64,000 nucleotides of DNA from Dehalococcoidia bacterium (GTDB lineage Bacteria; Chloroflexota; Dehalococcoidia; DSTF01; JACRBR01): NCBI GenBank assembly GCA_021462855.1, contig JAJTXQ010000014.1, positions 338,182 through 402,181 of the forward strand. The letters run 5' to 3'. This document shows, in pieces, positions 53,175-55,664 of the stretch; positions within the stretch are counted from its first letter, which is position 1; each line of letters begins with the position of its first letter. A program made the translations under genes and the position numbers. The notes below the pieces were generated by a model that made no database searches, had not been told where the DNA came from, and saw only the letters and a list, made by a program, of their open reading frames with translations.

Positions 53175-53489
53175 ATGCTCATCAGCACGACTACGGCGAT
53201 CGAAGGGCGGCCCGTCGCCGAGTACCTCGGCGTCGTCACCGGCGAGTCGATCCTCGGCGCGAACATCTTCCGCGACATTGGCGCGCAGATCCGCAACATC
53301 ACCGGCGGCCGCGCCGCAGGCTACGAGAAGGAATTGCGCCGCGGCCGCGACGAGGCGATGGCCGAGTTGACACAGGCCGCCACCGACATGGGCGCGGACG
53401 CGGTCATCGGCGTCGATATCGATTACGAGACGGTCGGCGGGTCAATGCTCATGGTGACGGTGTCCGGCACGGCGGTGAAGCTGGGGTGA
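53175..53489 (+). CDS. YbjQ / UPF0145 family protein
   Basis: [81 protein letters not shown]. Confidence 0.93.
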
Positions 53490-53491
53490 GC

Positions 53492-54367
53492 ATGGAAGTC
53501 GACAGCTACAAGTGGCTGCCCCCGTCGCTGAAGGCGTGGTCCGCGAACCTCGCCGTACCGCCGTACGACGACGTGCCATGGACGCCGCTCGCCCGGCCGC
53601 TCGCCGAAGCGCGCATCGCGCTCGTGACGACGGCCGGGATCAACGTGCGCGGCGCGGAGCCGCCGTTCGACTACGAGCGCGAGCAGGACCACCCGAACTG
53701 GGGCGACCCGACGTACCGCGTCCTGCCGCGCGACCTGCGCCAGGAGCAGGTGCAGACCGGGCACCTGCACATCAACAACGACGACATCGACCGCGACGTG
53801 AACATCGCGCTGCCCGTGCACCGCATGCTCGAACTCGAGGCGGCGGGCGTCGTCGGCAGCCTTTCGCCGCGCAACTTCTCGTTCATGGGCTACCAGCCCG
53901 ACACGACCGAGTGGCGCGAGCGCTACGGCCCCGAAGCGGCCGCGCTGATGAAGGACGACCGCGTCGACGGCGTCGTCCTGACGCCCGTGTGACCGGACTG
54001 CTGCCGCGCCGTGAATGCGCTGGCACGCACGTTCGAGGCAGCCGGCCTCAGCACCGTCGTCGTCAACATGATGCCGGCTTGGGGCGGGCGGTACGGCACG
54101 CCGCGCACGCTCGGCGTCGAATTCCCGTTCGGGCACACGCTCGGCCTTCCCGGCGACGCGGCGATGCAGACGCGCGTGCTCCGGGCGGCGCTCTCCCTCC
54201 TTGAATCGGCCCGCCCACCCGGGCCGGTCGTCGCGCACTTCCAGGAACCATGGCCGGGCGACTTCGACGTGTGGAAGAAGGCGTGGCACCCGCCCGTGCC
54301 TTCGCCGATGATCCGCTGGCTGAAGGAGCAGGCGCTGAAGCGGCGCGCCGAGGCCGCGGACAGCTGA
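53492..54367 (+). CDS. GrdB-like (glycine/sarcosine/betaine reductase selenoprotein B family) protein with in-frame UGA predicted as selenocysteine
   Basis: ORFs 53486..53992 and 54011..54367 are in the same frame with only UGA (53990-53992) between them; reads ...DGVVLTPV-U-PDCCRAVNALARTFEAAGLSTVVVNMMPAWGGRYGTPRTLGVEFPFGHTLG... Confidence 0.75.
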
Positions 54368-54428: not shown

Positions 54429-55664
54429 ATGTCGCTCGAGATCAGGCCGTATCGTGAAGACGAGGCCGACGCGTTCTACCGCGTGCCGTCGATCGTCTTC
54501 GGCAACTACACGGGACAACCACGATCGCCGGAAGCCAGCGCCGGCATGCTCCCCGACTGGTCGCTTTGCGCGTTCGAGGACGGCGAATTGGCGACCGCAT
54601 ACGGCGCCTTCCCGTTCACCATGCGCTTCAACGGCGGCGAAGCGCCGGCCGCCGGCGTGTCGTTCGTCGGCACGCTGCCGCACTGGCGGCGACGCGGCCA
54701 CCTGCGCAAGATCATGGAGGCAGACTTCCGTCGCCGCTACGAGCAGCGCATGCAGCCACTGGCGATCCTGCTCGCGTCGATCGCAGCGATCTACCAGCGC
54801 TACGGCTACGCCGTCTGCTCGTCGAAGTACCGATACGCGATCGACCCGCGCTGGATCGGCTTCGCGCCGTCGCTGCCGCGGCCACAGGGCACGTGGCGCG
54901 AGGTGATGAAGGACGACATCGCCGTCGTGCAGGAGATCTACCGCCAGTTCATCGCCGGGCGCACGGGCTACCTGCACCGCGCGCCGATCATGTGGGAGAT
55001 GCTGCTTGGCCTGCACCCCGAACTCGGCGGGGGCGAGTACGGCGCGAGCATCGCGGCGGTGTACGAGGAGGACGGCGCGCCGCGCGGGTATGTGCTGTAC
55101 GGGGCCAAGGGCTTCGAGACGCACCCGGACGGCGCGGGCCCCGGACAGCGCGTCATGGTCCGGGACTACGCATGGCTCACCCCCGGCGCCTGCAGGGCGA
55201 TGTGGGAGTACTTCAAGACGTTCGACCTCGCCGCGCGCATCCACGTCGACCGCGCGCCCGTCGATGACCCGGCATTCGACATCATGCTCGACCCGCGGGA
55301 GTTGAATGCGACGCGCGGCGACTGGCTGCTCGGTCGCGTCATCGACGTGGAGCGGCTCGTCCCGCTGCGGCGCTACGGCCGCGAAGGCCGCGCCGTGCTC
55401 GATCTGCGCGACGAGATGTGCCCGTGGAACGAAGGACGCTGGCTGATCGAGACAGGCGGGGAACAGACGTCGGTCCGGCGCACAAACGAGACGCCCGACC
55501 TCTCGCTCGACGTCTCGGCGCTTGCGCAGGTCCTCTTCGGTCAGGTCGCGCCGTCGCGCGCCGTGCGCTACGGCCGCGGCGAAGCGTCGCCGAACGCCGA
55601 CCTGGCGCGGCTCGACGCGATCTTCCGCACGGACTACGCGCCGTTCTGCCCCGACATGTTCTAG
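54429..55664 (+). CDS. Eis-like GNAT family N-acetyltransferase
   Basis: AAGVSFVGTLPHWRRRGHLRKIMEADFRRRYEQRMQPLAILLASIAAIYQRYGYAV; Eis-type tandem architecture and C-terminal DMF*. Confidence 0.88.
   Translation: MSLEIRPYREDEADAFYRVPSIVFGNYTGQPRSPEASAGMLPDWSLCAFEDGELATAYGAFPFTMRFNGGEAPAAGVSFVGTLPHWRRRGHLRKIMEADFRRRYEQRMQPLAILLASIAAIYQRYGYAVCSSKYRYAIDPRWIGFAPSLPRPQGTWREVMKDDIAVVQEIYRQFIAGRTGYLHRAPIMWEMLLGLHPELGGGEYGASIAAVYEEDGAPRGYVLYGAKGFETHPDGAGPGQRVMVRDYAWLTPGACRAMWEYFKTFDLAARIHVDRAPVDDPAFDIMLDPRELNATRGDWLLGRVIDVERLVPLRRYGREGRAVLDLRDEMCPWNEGRWLIETGGEQTSVRRTNETPDLSLDVSALAQVLFGQVAPSRAVRYGRGEASPNADLARLDAIFRTDYAPFCPDMF

Follow-up and report, generated by a model that had tools for sequence, protein, structure and literature searches.

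In-frame TGA codon in a PrdB-like gene

Two open reading frames (ORFs) in a 64,000-nucleotide stretch of the genome of a Dehalococcoidia bacterium (hereinafter, the window; all features given by window coordinates are on its forward strand) raise the question of whether a standard stop codon separates two genes or, rather, is translated within a single one. The ORFs, 53486-53992 and 54011-54367, are in the same frame, and the TGA at 53990-53992 is the sole stop codon from 53486 up to the terminal TGA (54365-54367); this frame check bears out the initial annotation of the locus, in which the two ORFs were described as parted by the TGA alone. The gene produced by reading through this codon (53492-54367, with the coding sequence at 53492-54364) likely starts at the ATG at 53492, 2 nt past the end (53489) of the upstream YbjQ-like gene, and comprises 291 residues, with the TGA, counted from this ATG, at residue 167. 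The read-through product contains the sequence DGVVLTPV-U-PDC-CRAVNALA and hence the UxxC motif, in the form U-P-D-C, as originally quoted. Given the TGA/Cys column of the homologues and the selenocysteine (Sec) machinery of the genome (see below), we infer with high confidence that 53492-54364 is one gene in which the TGA at 53990-53992 is read as Sec.

The read-through product matches the Pfam family GRDB (PF07355) with 51.4 bits (E = 1.3e-13), above the gathering cut-off of 22. The best NCBIfam model is PrdB (TIGR04483), with 145.8 bits (E = 1.4e-42), which is below the equivalog cut-off of 300; this model is matched by all 14 of the 14 aligned homologues. The match to PrdB spans the TGA as a single stretch (residues 19-241 of 291) and, together with the GRDB match, covers both sides of the codon, in agreement with the homology initially noted there. 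The NCBIfam models of GrdH, GrdF and GrdB give 36-61 bits against cut-offs of 602-800; specifically, the GrdB equivalog (TIGR01917) gives 36.5 bits against 602.2, and the product has 291 residues compared with about 430 in full-length GrdB. Judging from these profile matches, the product is a PrdB-like member of the GRDB superfamily that lies outside the curated definitions of both PrdB and GrdB. Thus, the earlier description of the gene as GrdB-like holds at the level of the PrdB/GrdB family, but the closest model is PrdB, with GrdB-type models reaching only 36.5-61 bits.

Compared with PrdB of Clostridium sticklandii and C. difficile (TIGR04483), the window protein shares the UxxC Sec motif, a similar size and homology over residues 19-241, but scores half of the equivalog cut-off, has an extra C-terminal tail and comes from an aerobic-type genome in which no PrdA was found in a search run without a positive control. 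With the selenoprotein B components of glycine, sarcosine and betaine reductases (GrdB, GrdF and GrdH), it has in common the Pfam family and a Sec site at the matching place; however, the N-terminal approximately 200 positions of GrdB are absent, and no GrdE-type proprotein was found.

Sec-containing PrdB proteins with a UxxC motif were reported from the Sargasso Sea in 2005, where, with 42 genes, they ranked third in abundance among the known selenoprotein families (PMC1088965), and in 2008 the GOS data set yielded 235 Sec and 110 Cys sequences of PrdB (pfam07355, UxxC), again among the most abundant families (PMC2398784). These marine 'Proline reductase PrdB' proteins resemble the window protein in the Pfam family, the UxxC motif and the existence of Sec and Cys forms, as compared by description rather than by alignment. 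Because Sec-containing PrdB is catalogued in both surveys, the kind is already known from marine metagenomes, and the window gene is a new, well-supported member.

Sec and Cys alternate at a single column across the phylum

In a sample of 18 genomes from the order, the gene is present in 11, and every copy that spans the site carries TGA at the same codon. All 11 of these genomes with the UGA-containing gene encode SelB, complete or in part, and the three genomes without a trace of SelB, two of them 96% complete, also lack the gene. A scan of genome contigs yielded an Anaerolineales relative with 51% identity (L037). Across the phylum, a homologue was detected in 99 of the 400 genomes sampled. 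Of the fetched hit loci, 66 extend across the site; a few places, including the window's own gene, are represented twice in this number. At the column of residue 167, 49 of these loci have TGA and the other 17 have Cys; neither a third residue nor a TAA or TAG codon occurs. This distribution answers the question of whether Sec or Cys aligns at residue 167, and the recurrence of TGA at the identical column in 49 loci supports the original argument that a random stop is improbable. In addition, the excess of third-codon-position changes continues past the TGA (5, 4, 16 against homologue L022).

Of the genomes tested for SelB, all 20 that carry the Sec form encode it, as do 11 of the 15 that carry the Cys form. 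Because most of the Cys-form genomes still possess SelB, Sec apparently was replaced, or was never gained, without loss of the machinery. The Cys forms (L077-L092, motif CPLCHR) come mainly from large genomes, up to 13.7 Mb.

The family shows further variation at and beyond this site. In one PrdB-like homologue (L095, G317:C266:2466-3185), a second TGA takes the place of the motif Cys, giving U-P-I-U, a double-Sec redox motif. A second PrdB-like subfamily (L029, L030, L032, L035 and L064-L066) consists of proteins that are extended at the C-terminus, have a length of at least about 400 residues and likewise have TGA at the site; some genomes (for example, G401) contain up to five copies.

A predicted SECIS element downstream of the TGA

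The minimum free energy (MFE) fold of the 46 nt that follow the UGA (-21.2 kcal/mol, z = -2.49) contains a bulged stem at 53994-54035 that we predict to be a bacterial SECIS element. Its upper stem (GCGC at 54006-54009 paired with GCGC at 54017-54020) carries the apical loop CGUGAAU (54010-54016), with G at the second loop position followed by U, and the loop lies 17 nt from the UGA. This hairpin falls within the published bacterial SECIS model (PMC13188914), which specifies a loop of 3-9 nt, an upper stem of 4-16 bp, G within the first two loop positions, a spacing of 16-37 nt and an MFE of -7.5 or lower. A different hairpin had been suggested initially (54016-54019 with 54026-54029, loop CTGGCA). 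Its bases are present, but the pairing is mutually exclusive with the 54006-54009/54017-54020 stem of the MFE fold and does not conform to the model; we therefore reject this candidate.

Because the DNA is GC-rich, the hairpin of the window gene is weak evidence by itself, with 48% of the synonymous shuffles of this gene also satisfying the SECIS model, and the support comes from the family. Raw folding energy compared with synonymous shuffles likewise proved too weak in GC-rich DNA and was replaced by a model-based count with the Cys forms as the control. A model-fitting hairpin is present in 44 of the 45 distinct Sec homologues, compared with 14.6 expected from synonymous-codon shuffles, whereas among the Cys homologues it occurs in 1 of 15, compared with 2.6 expected. 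The nominal z of 9.9 for this count is overstated because the sequences are related; the contrast between the Sec and Cys forms is nevertheless clear.

The distance from the UGA to the SECIS loop is 17 nt in the window's family (L021-L023) and 23 nt in other order families (L024-L027 and L037). The protein alignment is gap-free across this region, so that the SECIS element has shifted in register.

The genome encodes the Sec machinery

The components that were to be sought elsewhere in the genome (3.02 Mb in 76 contigs) are all there: selA (518 bits), selB (domain match 55.7 bits; full selB 309.8 bits), selD (360 bits) and a tRNA-Sec with the UCA anticodon, at 70.8 bits, which exceeds the Rfam gathering score. 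Neither outcome that the initial annotation listed as a refutation, a genome devoid of this machinery or homologues with neither Sec nor Cys at the site, was observed. The selD gene (L014, G000:C35:65160-66095) itself contains an in-frame TGA, within SLASCAGUASKAG, and is thereby a second selenoprotein gene of this genome; the U of CAGUASK is at what we take to be the usual Sec/Cys site of SelD. No further PrdB-like gene was found elsewhere in the genome.

Alternative readings of the TGA

Standard gene calling yields two ORFs at this locus, so that, as the initial annotation pointed out, the selenoprotein gene is lost; the same output is what a genuine stop would give, be it in a pseudogene or in a gene split by a sequencing error, and the terminal stop of this very gene is also TGA. 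Such a reading is extremely improbable, being refuted by the conservation of the column, where TGA occupies the same codon in 49 loci phylum-wide and Cys is the sole alternative; moreover, protein-level constraint persists downstream of the TGA, and the SECIS-model hairpin goes with TGA rather than with Cys. We also find it very improbable that the locus encodes two separate proteins, one of 166 residues and another whose translation restarts at the GTG at 54011: an in-frame GTG is indeed available 18 nt past the TGA, but both the U-P-x-C motif and C170, a conserved residue, fall between the two codons, the Cys homologues continue through the site as a single protein, and the match to the NCBIfam PrdB model is unbroken across it. 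Reassignment of TGA to another residue, such as tryptophan, has a negligible probability; the open frame is all that speaks for it, and it is refuted by the column, in which the homologues have Cys and never Trp, as well as by the use of TGA as the terminal stop of the gene and by the full Sec machinery of the genome. The Sec reading of the TGA is accordingly the one retained below.

Genomic context and likely function

The upstream neighbour, a YbjQ-family gene (PF01906; 53175-53489), ends 2 nt before the start of the selenoprotein gene, and the two are possibly co-transcribed, but the association of YbjQ with the PrdB-like gene is not conserved. The downstream GNAT/SCP2 (Eis-like) acetyltransferase gene (54429-55664) retains its adjacency only in three relatives from the same family, and a SprT-like gene is also among the neighbours. 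In other lineages, the neighbours differ (by eye, PhzF-, nitroreductase- and amidohydrolase-like), and no single neighbour recurs in every lineage. Nothing recognisable as a prd or grd gene, or as a PrdA/GrdE-type partner, was found among the neighbours in the lineages examined. Profile searches of the window's genome, both run without a positive control, gave no match for PrdA or for the glycine reductase family PF09338. The genome encodes two COX1 genes, which suggests aerobic respiration.

These observations bear on the possibility that the protein functions as the PrdB of an authentic Stickland D-proline reductase, partnered by the PrdA pyruvoyl subunit. TIGR04483 is the top NCBIfam model and the UxxC motif is shared, but we regard this assignment as very unlikely, considering the score of less than half the cut-off, the failure to find PrdA in the genome (in the search without a positive control) or nearby, the two COX1 genes indicative of aerobic life, and neighbourhoods that vary between families and contain no prd genes. 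A role in a D-proline or glycine reductase complex is unlikely because no Stickland partner gene was recognised alongside, COX1 is present twice in the genome and the gene neighbours vary between lineages; the protein is, in our estimate, likely to have a stand-alone, non-Stickland role.

The predicted structure of the protein (pLDDT 91.5) places Sec167 at the junction between a beta strand (160-164) and the N-terminal end of a helix (168-183), from which it could plausibly act with Cys170 as a redox pair. Searches of the PDB by sequence and by fold gave no convincing match. In the mechanism we envisage, SelB and Sec-tRNA(UCA) would bind the SECIS hairpin just 3' of the UGA at 53990-53992, and selenocysteine would be inserted at residue 167 during translation. 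Sec167 and Cys170 of U-P-D-C could then form a selenenylsulfide/selenolate redox pair, and the protein most likely acts as a stand-alone, selenium- and thiol-dependent oxidoreductase or reductase, presumably on a small substrate.

Implications

Automatic annotation would cut this gene in two, and the selenoprotein reading mends the mis-split; the PrdB-like gene is, furthermore, evidence of Sec use in this genome. The family offers a clean comparative set, with Sec forms that have a SECIS element and Cys forms that lack it. We somewhat favour the view that the window gene belongs to a large group of stand-alone PrdB-like Sec/Cys oxidoreductases that is widespread in aerobic-type Chloroflexota and catalyses a non-Stickland redox reaction. 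The name 'proline reductase', under which this family is abundant in marine metagenomes, is probably misleading.
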